From positions 1 to 10,912 of the forward strand of contig PCCT01000111.1 of the NCBI GenBank assembly GCA_002731985.1: a stretch of 10,912 nucleotides of DNA, given 5' to 3'. Below are positions 5,898 to 10,912 of this stretch, one piece after another. The notes below the pieces were generated by a model. The model was not told where the DNA came from. It searched no databases and worked only from the letters and a program-made list of their open reading frames with translations. The translations under genes and the position numbers were made by a program. This stretch comes from Nitrospinota bacterium. GTDB lineage: Bacteria; Nitrospinota; Nitrospinia; Nitrospinales; VA-1. Numbering within the stretch: position 1 is the stretch's first letter; the number at the start of each line of letters is the position of its first letter.

Positions 5898-5973
5898 TTC
5901 AGCAGGTTCTGGACAATTATCGGGAGTTACCCCGAATCTGTTGATGGGCTTTGCTGAAACAAGCGACTTTTTT
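5898..5973 (+). promoter_or_regulatory. Nested inverted repeats and T-run in the murD-ftsW spacer
   Basis: This lies in the 173-nt spacer between murD and ftsW, the longest gap in the cluster. TTCAGCA (5898-5904) pairs with TGCTGAA (5952-5958), extendable inward by two G-U pairs. Inside it, TCGGG (5920-5924) pairs with CCCGA (5931-5935) around the loop AGTTAC. Six T residues (5968-5973) follow the outer stem after 9 nt. That is too far for a textbook intrinsic terminator but compatible with an attenuator-like or leader structure. I found no convincing sigma70-type -35/-10 pair in the spacer. The pairing is directly visible; regulation of ftsW is inference. Confidence 0.35.
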
Positions 5974-5995
5974 AGGAATCGAGATCATGTTTTCT

Positions 5996-6008
5996 GGAGG
6001 AAACATTG
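5996..6008 (+). promoter_or_regulatory. Ribosome binding site and TTG start of ftsW
   Basis: GGAGG (5996-6000) sits 5 nt before TTG 6006-6008, an ideal spacing. In the ftsW frame a TAG stop at 5973-5975 closes the frame upstream, and there is no ATG between that stop and the TTG. The nearest ATG (5987) is in another frame. These facts together fix the start at an uncommon TTG codon. Confidence 0.85.
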
Positions 6009-7118
6009 GGCCGTCCAAAGCTGAAACAACTTCATTGCGATTCGATACTTTTTTTGACGATTACCGTGCTGGTATTCATCGGTCTCGTAATGGTGTTCAG
6101 TTCCAGCGGAGTGTATGCAATGGAAAAATACAACGACCCTTATTACTTCCTCAAACGTCAGGCTCTATGGGTTGTGTTGGGAACTATTATCATGCTCACG
6201 GTGCGAAAAATGGACTACCGCTACCTGGAAAAGTACGCCTATATCATCATGACCGCAACGTTCCTGATGCTGATTGCGGTAATGATGCCTGGGCTGGGAA
6301 AAGAGGTTGGCGGGGCCAGACGCTGGCTGGTTCTCGGGGGTTTGACTTTTCAGCCATCGGAGCTTGCCAAATTCGCGCTGGTGCTGTTCATCGCAAAGTC
6401 GTTGGTGAAGCGGGCCGACCAATTGAAAAATTTTGCTTACGGGTACCTGCCCAAGTTGATTGTTCTAGGATTTTTCTTCGTACCCATTCTGTTTCAACCC
6501 GATTTCGGAACGGCAATGATTATATGCGTTGTCACCTTCACCATGCTCATGATAGCAGGACTGCGCACGAAGTTTCTGGTCTATTCGGTTATAGCGATCA
6601 TCCCTTTCATCGTCGCGGCGATTATGGGAGCCAACTATCGGACACGACGAATCATCGCTTTTCTCGATCCATGGCAGGACCCATCGGACACAGGCTTTCA
6701 GGCAATTCAATCGTTTTACGCGTTCGGACGCGGAGGGATCTTCGGCTCTGGAATCGGGGACAGCAGTCAAAAACTGTTTTATCTTCCGGAAGCGCATACA
6801 GACTTTATTTTCTCGGTGATTGGCGAGGAACTCGGGTTCATAGGCACGCTGATCATCGTTCTGCTGTTTTCAGTATTGATCTGGAGAGGGTTTGTCATTG
6901 CCCACCGCGCCAAAGATTCTTTCGGCACTCATGTGGCGATTGGTCTGACGCTTTTACTCGGCACCCAGGCATTTGTGAACATGGGAGTCGCTGTGGGTTT
7001 ACTCCCAACAAAAGGACTGACGCTTCCGTTTATCAGTATGGGCGGGTCGTCGCTGTTGGTCCTGATGCTTTCAGTGGGGGTGTTACTGAATATTTCAGAG
7101 CAACCCGTCCAACATTGA
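6006..7118 (+). CDS. ftsW: Septal peptidoglycan glycosyltransferase FtsW (SEDS family)
   Basis: A 370-residue polytopic membrane protein of the SEDS family, a little shorter than E. coli FtsW (414). FtsW polymerises lipid II into glycan strands at the division site in partnership with FtsI, whose gene ends at the left of this window. Family blocks are FSSSGVYAM (31-39), GGARRWL (102-108), QPSELAK (116-122), QPDFGTA (164-170), RRIIAFLDPWQDPSDTGFQ (214-232), LPEAHTDFIFSVIGEELGF (260-278) and the C-terminal GLLPTKGLTLPFISMGGSSL (331-350). Asp266 in TDFIF corresponds to the extracellular-loop Asp considered catalytic in SEDS enzymes. About ten hydrophobic segments are visible. The short N-terminal cytoplasmic region (GRPKLKQLH) is basic. 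Placement between murD and murG favours FtsW over the paralogue RodA. The start is the TTG described separately. Confidence 0.95.
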   Translation: MGRPKLKQLHCDSILFLTITVLVFIGLVMVFSSSGVYAMEKYNDPYYFLKRQALWVVLGTIIMLTVRKMDYRYLEKYAYIIMTATFLMLIAVMMPGLGKEVGGARRWLVLGGLTFQPSELAKFALVLFIAKSLVKRADQLKNFAYGYLPKLIVLGFFFVPILFQPDFGTAMIICVVTFTMLMIAGLRTKFLVYSVIAIIPFIVAAIMGANYRTRRIIAFLDPWQDPSDTGFQAIQSFYAFGRGGIFGSGIGDSSQKLFYLPEAHTDFIFSVIGEELGFIGTLIIVLLFSVLIWRGFVIAHRAKDSFGTHVAIGLTLLLGTQAFVNMGVAVGLLPTKGLTLPFISMGGSSLLVLMLSVGVLLNISEQPVQH

Positions 7119-7128
7119 CGCACGGGCT

Positions 7129-8277
7129 ATGGGAAAAAAAGTCGTCATAGCAGGCGGAGGCACCGGGGGTCACTTATATCCCGGCATCGCCCTCGCAAAA
7201 GCACTCAAGAGGAATGATATGGATATTGAAATCACATTCGTTGGAACCAGGCAGGGCATCGAATCCAAAATTCTTCCCAGGGAAGATTTCAATTTAAAAA
7301 CCATTCTTTCCTCTGGTTTGTTGGGAAAGAAAGGGCTCAGTAAGTGGACTTCATTGTGCAAGCTCCCGATAGGAACAGCGCAGTCGATGTGTTTTCTTAT
7401 CCGCAACCGTCCTAATCTTGCTGTTGGTGTTGGCGGCTACGCTTCTGCTCCGCTGGTGTTTTCAGCCTGGTTGTTGCGTATTCCAATCCTCATTCATGAA
7501 CAAAACGCGTTTCCTGGCATGGCTAATAAATGGCTGGGAAAAATTGCAGATAAGGTAGCGATTTCTTTTGAAGAATCGAAACGCTTTTTTCCTAATAACA
7601 AGGTTGAAGTAACCGGCAACATGATCAGCGAAGAACTCTGTCGTCCAAGAGAAGAATTCCCGCCTTCTTCAAAAGATCCGTTTGGCATCCTCATTCTTGG
7701 AGGAAGCCAGGGAGCGCACTCCATCAACATGGCGATGATTGAAACGCTGGACCTTCTGGCGGACCGGAAAGGCGATATACACATCACTCACCAGACCGGG
7801 GAAGCGGATTATGAATCCATTAAGAATATGTACAAGGCGAAAGGCTTTACCGCCGATGTCCAGGCTTTCATAACGGATATGCCCGTGAGGTATCGGCTGG
7901 CCTCTCTTGTCATCTGTCGGTCGGGAGCGACAACGCTCGCTGAAATTACGGCGGCGGGAAGAGTTTCGGTTCTCATTCCTTTCCCTTACGCGACCCACAA
8001 CCATCAGGAGCACAATGCTCGAGTGGTCGAAGCCGCTAACGCAGGAGAGTTGATTTTGGACAGCGAGGTCTCTGGCGAGCGCCTTGCCCAATCTATTAAA
8101 AGGGCAATGGACGAACCGGATCAGATTCAGGAAATGGAAGACAACAGTTACGGGCTCGGCAATCGTGACGCCACTGAAAAAGTGCGAGAGATTTGCATGG
8201 AGCTGATGGGGAACGCTAGAAAAGCTGCAGGCAACGATAATAAACCCAAAGGAAGATATGTTTTGTCATGTTTCTAG
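7129..8277 (+). CDS. murG: Lipid II-forming GlcNAc transferase MurG
   Basis: A 382-residue GT-B fold glycosyltransferase, slightly longer than E. coli MurG (355). It moves GlcNAc from UDP-GlcNAc to lipid I on the cytoplasmic face of the membrane, making lipid II. Motifs are the N-terminal GGGTGGH (9-15), GVGGYASAP (100-108), HEQNAFPG (123-130), the donor-side GGSQGA (191-196), CRSGATTLAEI (263-273) and HQEHNA (292-297). An oddity is TGNMIS (162-167), where the family usually reads TGNPVR or TGNPIR. The last ~20 residues form a polar, basic tail beyond the family domain, encoded where the murC translation signal lies. ATG 7129 is 10 nt after the ftsW stop; no good Shine-Dalgarno is seen, suggesting coupled translation. 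Confidence 0.96.
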   Translation: MGKKVVIAGGGTGGHLYPGIALAKALKRNDMDIEITFVGTRQGIESKILPREDFNLKTILSSGLLGKKGLSKWTSLCKLPIGTAQSMCFLIRNRPNLAVGVGGYASAPLVFSAWLLRIPILIHEQNAFPGMANKWLGKIADKVAISFEESKRFFPNNKVEVTGNMISEELCRPREEFPPSSKDPFGILILGGSQGAHSINMAMIETLDLLADRKGDIHITHQTGEADYESIKNMYKAKGFTADVQAFITDMPVRYRLASLVICRSGATTLAEITAAGRVSVLIPFPYATHNHQEHNARVVEAANAGELILDSEVSGERLAQSIKRAMDEPDQIQEMEDNSYGLGNRDATEKVREICMELMGNARKAAGNDNKPKGRYVLSCF

Positions 8278-9663: not shown

Positions 9664-9683
9664 AGGAGGAACCCACCCCCATG
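9664..9683 (+). promoter_or_regulatory. Strong ribosome binding site before the upstream murB start
   Basis: AGGAGG (9664-9669), inside a longer AGAGGAGGAA stretch, lies 11 nt before ATG 9681. A C-rich run (ACCCACCCCC, 9671-9680) fills the gap. It is the strongest Shine-Dalgarno in the window. The alternative start ATG 9813 has only a weak purine run (GAGAAAAAA). This site is the main reason to place the murB start upstream and accept an N-terminal extension. Confidence 0.7.
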
Positions 9684-10736
9684 CTGAGCGGACCTTGGAA
9701 ACAACGGCTGATACGCTACGCAAATACTGGAACGGACCAACAATTCCCCATGAGGGATGGTCTGAATTCACCCAGAACTATTCTGGGACGAAAAATCCTG
9801 CAGAGAAAAAATATGAACTCTTCTTTTTCCTTCCAAAATAAAATCAAAGGCGAGGTGCGCTATAACGAGATCATGTCTAAATACACCTCAATGCGAATTG
9901 GCGGCCCGGCAGATGTGTTTGTTCTTCCGGAAAGCCTGAGAGACCTGCAAATCATTTTGAAACATCGTGGCAGTTGTCCTGTGTGGACACTTGGTGAAGG
10001 CACCAATCTCCTGGTTCGTGACCGGGGTATTCGAGGCATCGTGGTGTCGCTCAAGAATTGCTTCAAATCGATCAAGCGTCCGGTGTTTTACAAAACTCCC
10101 GATGGCAAAGAACGAGCCGTCATCCAGGTGGACGGAGGGGTGAAGCTATCCTACCTCGCCAAGTATGCCGCGCGTTATGGTCTGACAGGAATTGAATCTC
10201 TGGTTGGCATTCCAGGTTCTGTCGGCGGAGCAGTCGTGATGAACGCCGGTGCAGAGGGTACTGAAATCGGGCAGGTTCTTCGCAGTGTCAAACGCGTGAA
10301 CCTTGATGGCGAAGTCGAAATCTTTGACAAGGACGATATAACATTCGCTTACCGTAAAACTACTTTCCCTTCAGGAGATGGAATCGTTATCGAAGCGGAA
10401 CTGGATTTGGAGAAGGGAGAGGCGTCAGAGGTTCATCGCAAGATGGGCGATCATATTTCACGCAGAAGTTCAACACAGCCGTTGACGATGCCTAACTCTG
10501 GATCAATCTTCAAAAATCCGAAAGGCGACAGCGCCGGACGCCTCATTGAGTCGTCCGGATTAAAGGGCTGTAGCATGGGCGGGGCTGGTGTTTCTATCAA
10601 GCACGCAAACTTTATAGTGAACAAAGGAAATGCTTCGGCAAAGGATGTGATCAAACTGATCGAACATATCCAAACTGTGGTTGAGGAAAAAACAGGGACG
10701 AAGCTGGAACAGGAAATTGTAATCATCGGGGAGTAA
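9681..10736 (+). CDS. murB: UDP-N-acetylenolpyruvoylglucosamine reductase MurB
   Basis: A FAD flavoenzyme of 351 residues from ATG 9681, or 307 from ATG 9813. It uses NADPH to reduce the enolpyruvyl ether, giving UDP-MurNAc, the substrate of MurC. Motifs are SKYTSMRIGGPAD (66-78), LGEGTNLLVRDRGIRGIVVS (104-123), VGIPGSVGGAVVMNAGAEG (175-193), FAYRKTTF (222-229), SGSIFKNPKGDSAGRLIE (273-290), where the second Ser (275) matches the catalytic serine, GAGVSIKHANFIVN (301-314) and a final EQEIVIIGE containing the conserved Glu. Length and motif order fit the shorter type II MurB class. The conserved domain begins near residue 50. The first 44 residues are basic, rich in Arg and Gln, and match nothing I recognise. 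The upstream start is favoured by its ribosome binding site. It lies 36 nt after murC. Confidence 0.94.
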   Translation: MLSGPWKQRLIRYANTGTDQQFPMRDGLNSPRTILGRKILQRKNMNSSFSFQNKIKGEVRYNEIMSKYTSMRIGGPADVFVLPESLRDLQIILKHRGSCPVWTLGEGTNLLVRDRGIRGIVVSLKNCFKSIKRPVFYKTPDGKERAVIQVDGGVKLSYLAKYAARYGLTGIESLVGIPGSVGGAVVMNAGAEGTEIGQVLRSVKRVNLDGEVEIFDKDDITFAYRKTTFPSGDGIVIEAELDLEKGEASEVHRKMGDHISRRSSTQPLTMPNSGSIFKNPKGDSAGRLIESSGLKGCSMGGAGVSIKHANFIVNKGNASAKDVIKLIEHIQTVVEEKTGTKLEQEIVIIGE

Positions 10737-10775
10737 TAACACAGTCGGCACAATGGCTGGATTCCCGTTTACCAA

Positions 10776-10864
10776 ATGTGTAAGAGGTCCGTGTACAAAG
10801 GTACCCCCCTCCTCCTTTGTGTTCGGACTCTCTAGCCGGAGTCGAATACGGATCTCTTACACAT
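10776..10864 (+). ncRNA. Candidate structured RNA or palindromic element: three-way junction
   Basis: Bases 10776-10794 pair with 10846-10864 to form a 19-bp stem: 17 Watson-Crick pairs plus G10787-T10853 and G10793-T10847, which are G-U in + strand RNA. Directly inside, ACAAAGG (10795-10801) pairs with CCTTTGT (10814-10820) around a C-rich loop. GACTC (10826-10830) pairs with GAGTC (10839-10843), extended by a T10831-G10838 wobble and, past a bulged G10825, by C10824-G10844 and T10823-A10845. Only two bases of the interior (10821-10822) lie outside the three helices and their loops. GC and TTTT (10867-10870) follow, a poor terminator tail. It sits between murB and the putative ddl start. I recognise no known RNA family; a leader element, a processed RNA or a dispersed palindromic repeat are all possible. 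Confidence 0.6.
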
Positions 10865-10885
10865 GCTTTTAACGACAAACGCTGA

Positions 10886-10912
10886 ATGGAACTGAAAGAA
10901 AAGACAATTGGA
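10886..10912 (+). CDS. ddl: Probable start of D-Ala-D-Ala ligase (ddl), cut by the window edge
   Basis: ATG 10886 opens a frame reading MELKEKTIG up to the end of the window. This matches the way many D-alanine-D-alanine ligases begin, with a short charged stretch and then the first beta-strand (KIGVLxGG). In dcw clusters ddl commonly follows murB, and the enzyme would supply the dipeptide used by MurF, encoded upstream. Only nine codons are visible and no clear Shine-Dalgarno precedes them, so the call rests mainly on context. Another cluster gene such as ftsQ is the main alternative. Confidence 0.5.

Follow-up and report, generated by a model that had tools for sequence, protein, structure and literature searches.

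Genes and features of the window

The window, by which we mean the whole 10,912-nucleotide stretch of DNA analysed here, is the final 10.9 kb of contig C111 in a Nitrospinaceae MAG (assembly of 1.58 Mb, 65% complete). Among named genomes, MAGs of Nitrospinaceae and Nitrospina stand closest to it. It carries a run of dcw genes that were named from their open reading frames as murE, murF, mraY, murD, ftsW, murG, murC and murB, the Pfam test among them covering murB only. A 399-aa frame at 5951-7150 overlaps the ftsW-like frame at 6006-7118 on the same strand, and is probably a shadow frame. The murB termination codon occupies 10734-10736 and the ATG of ddl lies at 10886, with 27 bases of ddl present before the contig ends; the closest relative, L003, gives the same MELKEKTIG. 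The element described here sits between the two genes, 39 nt after murB and 21 nt before ddl, distances that an earlier sequence-only reading of this DNA had given correctly. The features are as follows.

9681-10736, + strand: murB, the gene 5' of the element (ORF; Pfam MurB_C, E 5e-36, and FAD_binding_4); 9681 is the limit of the open frame, and the real start is possibly further downstream
10776-10864, + strand: entire three-way-junction RNA element with a lineage-specific longer stem (-41.7 kcal/mol, z -7.06)
10786-10854, + strand: order-wide conserved core, with P1 GGUCCGU...ACGGAUC, P2 and P3 (49.3 bits with covariance model R1, 59.2 bits with R2)
10776-10794, + strand: 5' strand of P1 (MFE; flank comparison)
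10846-10864, + strand: 3' strand of P1 (MFE; flank comparison)
10795-10820, + strand: P2 hairpin, ACAAAGG-loop-CCUUUGU (MFE; covariance-model alignment)
10802-10813, + strand: P2 loop, UACCCCCCUCCU, with the anti-Shine-Dalgarno-like CCUCC at 10808-10812
10821-10845, + strand: P3 hairpin, variable in sequence, with covarying pairs (two-sided changes in 9/9 consensus pairs)
10886-10912, + strand: first codons of ddl, MELKEKTIG, truncated where the contig stops (N-terminus that of the 306-aa ddl frame of L003)

Fold of the element

The element folds far better than shuffled controls, the comparison that the sequence-only reading had proposed, with an MFE of -41.7 kcal/mol where shuffles average -20.4 and none of 200 is as good; for the wider region 10737-10890, z is -4.44. 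The closing stem, P1, pairs 10776-10794 with 10846-10864 over 19 bp, every pair being standard and two of them G-U, as had been written before. In the MFE structure, P2 is formed by 10795-10801 with 10814-10820 around a loop of 12 nt, and P3 by 10826-10831 with 10838-10843, the latter helix being longer in the consensus register of the R1 alignment. The two enclosed hairpins of the earlier description stand. Its count of about 34 pairs with only two unpaired junction bases is a little generous, since 32 pairs (19+7+6) form in the MFE structure and seven bases of the junction stay unpaired; the centroid lies nearer to the earlier count.

An alternative hairpin can be drawn from the 5' half of the element, at 10783-10832, where AGA-GUCCG pairs with CGGAC-UCU around P2. 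This structure reaches -22.9 kcal/mol within the first 60 nt of the element, is also possible in L003 (-19.9) and L006 (-21.7), and, as modelled, might be the first to form during transcription.

Two other explanations for the sequence were rejected. A coding sequence was rejected, as the core lengths modulo 3 fall in all classes (21, 14 and 8 of 43, two of these cores being misparsed) and relatives differ, by eye, in the frame that runs through the element. A terminator was rejected, as no terminator-like site was found at the window's element in a scan limited to loops of 3-8, and a T run follows P1 in only some relatives, as judged by eye.

Distribution among relatives

Of 60 genomes searched, the window's own among them, 56 contain the murB protein, and the murB-ddl spacer was read in 50 genomes including the window, with G023 read additionally. 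The same architecture is present in 43 of the 50 spacers, and that of G023 is the 44th with the element. Common to them are a P1 of the form GGUCCG(Y)/(R)CGGACC, a P2 of the form CAAAGG-loop-CCUUUG with variants, and a mostly G+C-rich P3 whose sequence changes. The seven spacers without the element belong to six members of the window's own genus (L004, L005, L007, L008, L009 and L010) and to G021 (L112); in five of these genus-mates the gap is 16-20 nt, while the spacer of L007 is A+T-rich. With six genus-mates lacking it, the element is therefore the exception in the window's genus, where model R2 finds it in two of eight genomes.

Model R1 rests on nine sequences, a set that excludes both the window's genus and g9, to which L006 belongs. 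In the window it matches the element only (49.3 bits, E 5e-11), with nothing further at E <= 10, and in this sense the earlier remark that nothing similar occurs elsewhere in the window holds. With a cut-off of E <= 1.3e-4, R1 has matches in 44 of 60 genomes; one more match (0.3), that of G041 as the 45th genome, lies inside another gene. Model R2 was built from 50 R1 matches, the window among them, and has matches in 52 of the order's 64 genomes, the window's own among them; 44 of the 52 were also read at the locus, the other eight being G060-G062 and G064-G068. All 28 genomes of the order with a completeness of 90% or more and a contamination of 5% or less have a match, and none of 13 genomes of the phylum outside the order has one. 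The 12 negative genomes within the order comprise the seven that were read and are element-less, four in which murB was not found (G033, G035, G041 and G054), and G063. Among 80 murB neighbourhoods, matches occur only in two records named Nitrospina sp., with none in L036, a record named Nitrospinae; the match coordinates of L032, a record named Nitrospinaceae, coincide with those of L007, an element-less locus.

Covariation and strand

The search of relatives that had been proposed to decide the nature of the element also yielded covarying pairs. In the alignment fitted to the covariance model (49 distinct rows), 98.3% of cells are paired and two-sided changes occur in 13 of 22 pairs (84 cells), including all nine pairs of P3; none of 500 shuffles reaches any of the measures, and shifting the partner by one column lowers pairing to 60-62%. 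This alignment is biased toward the structure. In a plain MAFFT alignment (39 sequences, RNAalifold structure), 97.4% of cells are paired, with 29 two-sided cells, a number not reached in any of 500 shuffles, and with six pairs showing two-sided change, a number reached in 26 of 500. The MAFFT result is in the same direction, but weaker. P1 and P2 are kept in sequence, whereas P3 is kept mainly in its pairing.

Over 50 aligned copies, G-U cells outnumber A-C cells by 77 to 6, which indicates an RNA of the + strand, the orientation that the sequence-only reading had favoured from two G-U pairs. Pairs thus covary across homologues as expected of a conserved structured RNA, and the element is almost certainly a conserved functional RNA.

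Copy number

The palindromic look of the element, and its patchy occurrence in the window's genus (2/8 genomes), would be in keeping with a dispersed or mobile palindromic repeat of the REP or MITE kind, which was among the possibilities raised at the outset. This explanation is now highly improbable. By BLASTN, one of the checks suggested earlier, the 65% complete assembly contains a single copy, and the covariance model gives one match at E <= 10 among the 150 of 484 first-look candidates that were scored. Over the order, R2 gives 58 matches in 52 genomes, 46 with one and six with two, copy numbers that, like those for R1 and outside the order, come from 67-86 scored candidates per genome under strict filters. 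A repeat search of six genomes, with 150 candidates scored in each at E <= 10, gave nothing better than E 0.495 beyond the known matches. Furthermore, of the 50 aligned copies 44 share one location, the spacer between murB and ddl, as read directly, all in one orientation and directly before ddl, the loop is conserved and the pairs covary. The repeat was rejected because a genome has no more than one or two strong matches and the spacer is constant, with the caveat that first-look candidates were scored in part only. The element is a conserved RNA module of the + strand and not a mobile repeat.

The extended closing stem

The length of the closing stem is a peculiarity of the window's lineage. 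In the flank comparison, the window, L003 and L006 are alone in having all or almost all of the P1 extension at 10776-10785, and most relatives have a 7-bp P1 core with a patchy extension. A set of own flanks outdoes swapped flanks in forming the extended P1 (13 of 2000 permutations as good, with counts that include the L113 and L027 rows, which began at a wrong match); however, this signal stems largely from three genomes, and the extended P1 was therefore rejected as a general feature. The 19-bp stem is a lineage-specific extension.

A long stem of this type may suggest an element for processing or stability of the dcw mRNA, either an entry site for RNase III/E or a 3' shield, uncoupling murB from ddl and the later genes. 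The 19-bp helix of the window, which is extended almost identically in L003 and L006, would suit such a function, as would the spacers of just 16-20 nt in five of the seven element-less loci, which suggest coupled translation. We consider this explanation unlikely, since the length of the stem is not conserved, and since it would leave unexplained both the conservation of CCUCC and the stand-alone copies that are described below.

The P2 loop

The loop of P2 carries a CCUCC, present in 40 of 44 ddl-linked copies and in all six others (46/50 in total), and extended to CCUCCUU in 38 of the 44. It is kept although the surrounding spacers vary in length and, by eye, in sequence. The loop is pyrimidine-rich with a consensus of U-A-CCCCUCCUU, and the four ddl-linked copies that lack CCUCC (L031, L023, L028 and L131) are still C-rich. 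In the case of G038, the P2 stem is mostly gone and the loop CCCCUCCUUCC is retained. By its sequence, the CCUCC loop is like the anti-Shine-Dalgarno tail of 16S rRNA; the tail GGAUCACCUCCUUU is present in four of five genomes searched, the incomplete G000, which is the window's own genome, being without a match.

One extension of this likeness is that the hairpin mimics the 3' end of 16S rRNA for a protein, such as an assembly or initiation factor, and so links the synthesis of the wall to translation capacity by feedback. The sequence is GGUCACCCUCCUU or GGUCACCCCUCCUU in some loops, near GGAUCACCUCCUU, and the stems around the loop are conserved. However, the 16S letters AUCACCUCC are without an exact match in the loops read, and a protein-binding mimic appears quite improbable.

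Copies away from ddl

Six genomes (G008, G016, G011, G013, G019 and G029) have a second match, with E values of 2e-12 to 2e-8. These copies lie in intergenic DNA, approximately 350-680 nt after a FecR-type gene in the five genomes where that gene is readable to its stop; the FecR domain was shown in the upstream gene of G019, and relatives of that gene are found in the others. P1 is nearly unchanged and the P2 hairpin is kept. In the g7/g5 copies P3 is longer and carries a second C-rich loop, which by eye contains CCUCC in three of four. Short T runs are found at some of the stand-alone copies. In G008 the next gene on the + strand is not the one found in G013, G019 and G029, a difference that favours an RNA gene over a leader. 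Of two further g7 genomes with a FecR-type gene, G023 has no second match in the region read, nor has G026, in which the contig stops too soon.

All six copies have a TCAC-N8-GTGA sequence 173-438 nt upstream (L173, L174, L178, L176, L165 and L164), which in four overlaps a GTGA-N6-TCAC palindrome; the background of TCAC-N7-9-GTGA is 0.064 per kb over the loci compared, which are partly redundant. By their consensus these are CRP/FNR-like sites, of the kind that a CRP/FNR-family protein would bind.

Other features of these regions may be noted. Between the FecR gene and the element, L173 and L174 have open frames, similar by eye, that begin MDFPF, and in L178 this frame is interrupted by in-frame stops; the frames may encode a possible small protein in some genomes. 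Approximately 30-170 nt before the stand-alone copy, L173, L174, L176 and L178 have a second helix, in which a C-rich strand is paired with a G-rich tract. By eye this helix appears to covary, and with it the stand-alone RNA would consist of two domains. In L173, L174, L177 and L178, on the downstream side of the FecR gene, a short conserved protein, MNIYEEIKAFLEEIKEENENL... and its relatives, can be seen by eye.

Possible contacts of the loop in cis

Against dinucleotide shuffles, the P2 loop pairs with downstream flanks no better than chance: among the 43 rows the mean z is -0.01, and p <= 0.1 is reached by 2 of 43. With upstream flanks, 10 of 43 reach a shuffle p <= 0.1 where about four are expected, the lowest values being 0.005, 0.03, 0.035 and 0.035, in a test that took the loop by pattern, often without its last T, and in which the L113 and L027 rows came from a wrong match; a mean z carries no meaning for the upstream flanks, where the shuffles had almost no variance. 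A pseudoknot or Shine-Dalgarno sequestration in cis by the P2 loop was rejected, the downstream comparison giving nothing beyond shuffles; the upstream values are a weak hint, from predicted pairing, of an upstream contact. In many relatives, but not in the window (10740-10775), purine tracts resembling GGAG are found just after the murB stop.

These results bear on the view that the element is a cis-acting leader of ddl, riboswitch-like or controlled by a protein, that would set ddl translation, for instance by switching between the three-way junction and an alternative fold. All 44 ddl-linked copies are directly before ddl in a single orientation, the sequence-conserved P1 and P2 could belong to an aptamer, the -22.9 kcal/mol hairpin in the first 60 nt provides a candidate alternative fold, and the ten upstream flanks that pair with the loop are in agreement. 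Weighed against this, the module is also found far from ddl in six genomes, six genus-mates and G021 keep ddl without the element, downstream pairing is at the level of shuffles, and the scan of loops of 3-8 found no terminator-like site at the window's element. As to a riboswitch, the element is fixed before ddl in the spacers read and has second copies elsewhere, and no expression platform was identified. A ddl leader is the strongest of the competing explanations, and on this evidence a doubtful one.

Candidate targets and proposed mechanism

For the downstream genes of the operon, the consensus loop was compared with the 16S tail in pairing with ribosome-binding sites (RBSs). At the RBS of what its motifs suggest to be ftsA, two genes downstream of ddl, the loop pairs more strongly than the tail in 15 of 20 genomes, more weakly in four and equally in one; at that of ftsZ, identified in the same way, it is stronger in 11 of 19. 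The comparison is uncontrolled and used one consensus loop throughout with start codons chosen by pattern (that of ftsA in G014 is perhaps one start early), and ftsA is no more than a weak lead, because a C-rich loop gains from any G run. A search of eight genomes for AAGGAGGGG-N3-9-ATG gave 45 matches, two of which are one site, with no gene clearly repeated among the 30 read; the one resemblance noticed among them, by eye, is between two Sel1-repeat-like proteins (L213 and L227), and ftsA of G037 is the sole operon gene.

The mechanism that we prefer, at a probability of roughly 40%, is that the element is a riboregulator whose P2 loop CCUCC pairs with the ribosome-binding sites of target mRNAs. 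The strand signal, together with a simple scan of the ddl site that found no promoter-like match, suggests that the element is transcribed as a part of the dcw mRNA, between the murB and ddl portions. The three helices are predicted to present the P2 loop as an exposed hook resembling an anti-Shine-Dalgarno sequence, which would pair with GGAGG or AAGGAGGGG tracts at target RBSs and so lower or adjust their translation. The riboregulator may be released from the operon mRNA or kept on it; as neither a promoter-like nor a terminator-like signal was found at the ddl site in the simple scan (terminator loops of 3-8 only), release as an sRNA would need processing. In the stand-alone form, the same hook would be placed under separate control through the upstream CRP/FNR-like site. 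One observation weakens the pairing mechanism, in that pure loop pairing has no need of the sequence conservation seen in P1 and the P2 stem, which by its nature suits the binding of a protein or ligand.

A more specific, and improbable, version of the mechanism is that an anti-Shine-Dalgarno-mimicking module in the Nitrospinales dcw mRNA tunes the downstream division genes, with ftsA first, while the CRP/FNR-controlled paralogue couples respiration or nutrient state to this control.

Comparison with known systems

A search with Rfam 15 (4227 models) gave no match in the window at gathering thresholds and none in L120, L012 or L125 at E <= 1, and a limited search of the literature on Nitrospina RNAs, ddl-linked motifs and C-rich loops found no description of the element. 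The earlier statement that no riboswitch or leader is described at this dcw position therefore agrees with Rfam and with that limited search.

RNAs with C-rich loops are known elsewhere. The CcsR or cuckoo RNAs of alphaproteobacteria have hairpins with CCUCC-type anti-Shine-Dalgarno loops, and B11 of mycobacteria is a 6C RNA. The 6C/B11 RNAs are actinobacterial and independent sRNAs, with two C-rich hairpins, whereas the element has one C-rich loop at ddl, within a three-way junction and in an operon; with its single loop and the absence of an Rfam match, it does not belong to the 6C family. B11 is described with two C-rich loops, together with a six-G tract of eccB4 (PMC10470900); the likeness lies in exposed C-rich hairpin loops for which base pairing with runs of G in the 5' UTRs of targets is proposed. 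Four CcsR RNAs are described as co-transcribed with a DUF1127 protein (PMC10253847). PmaR of Agrobacterium is likewise a structured sRNA with an accessible C-rich loop and a link to peptidoglycan genes, but is presented as a spoon-like single stem acting in trans in an alphaproteobacterium, with an interacting sequence that is not an anti-Shine-Dalgarno sequence according to its authors (PMC6234868).

In terms of location, UpsM of Rhodobacter is similar in being a non-coding RNA from a dcw operon leader that is confined to one family, but it derives from the 5' leader of mraZ, with an intrinsic terminator and RNase E cleavage (PMC5089854). The element lies instead between murB and ddl, where no terminator-like site was found, and is not an RNA of the UpsM type.

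The nearest systems in manner of working are the C-rich-loop sRNAs (B11/6C, PmaR and the cuckoo RNAs), a hairpin with a CCUCC-like loop of the 6C or cuckoo type being present in 46 of 50 copies of the element, and the nearest in location is UpsM; none of B11/6C, PmaR, CcsR and UpsM matches its anatomy, as far as those descriptions show. The element is a genuine and apparently new RNA, of an ordinary kind (a structured regulatory RNA) in an unusual place and with a conserved loop that is anti-Shine-Dalgarno-like. It represents an order-wide RNA under evident selection in a core cell-wall operon of marine nitrite oxidisers, and the covariance model makes the idea of a riboregulator directly testable in cultured Nitrospina. 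If it is true that the loop acts on RBSs, a riboregulator of the C-rich-loop kind would here have its root in an essential operon, and in a phylum distant from those of B11/6C, PmaR, UpsM and CcsR.
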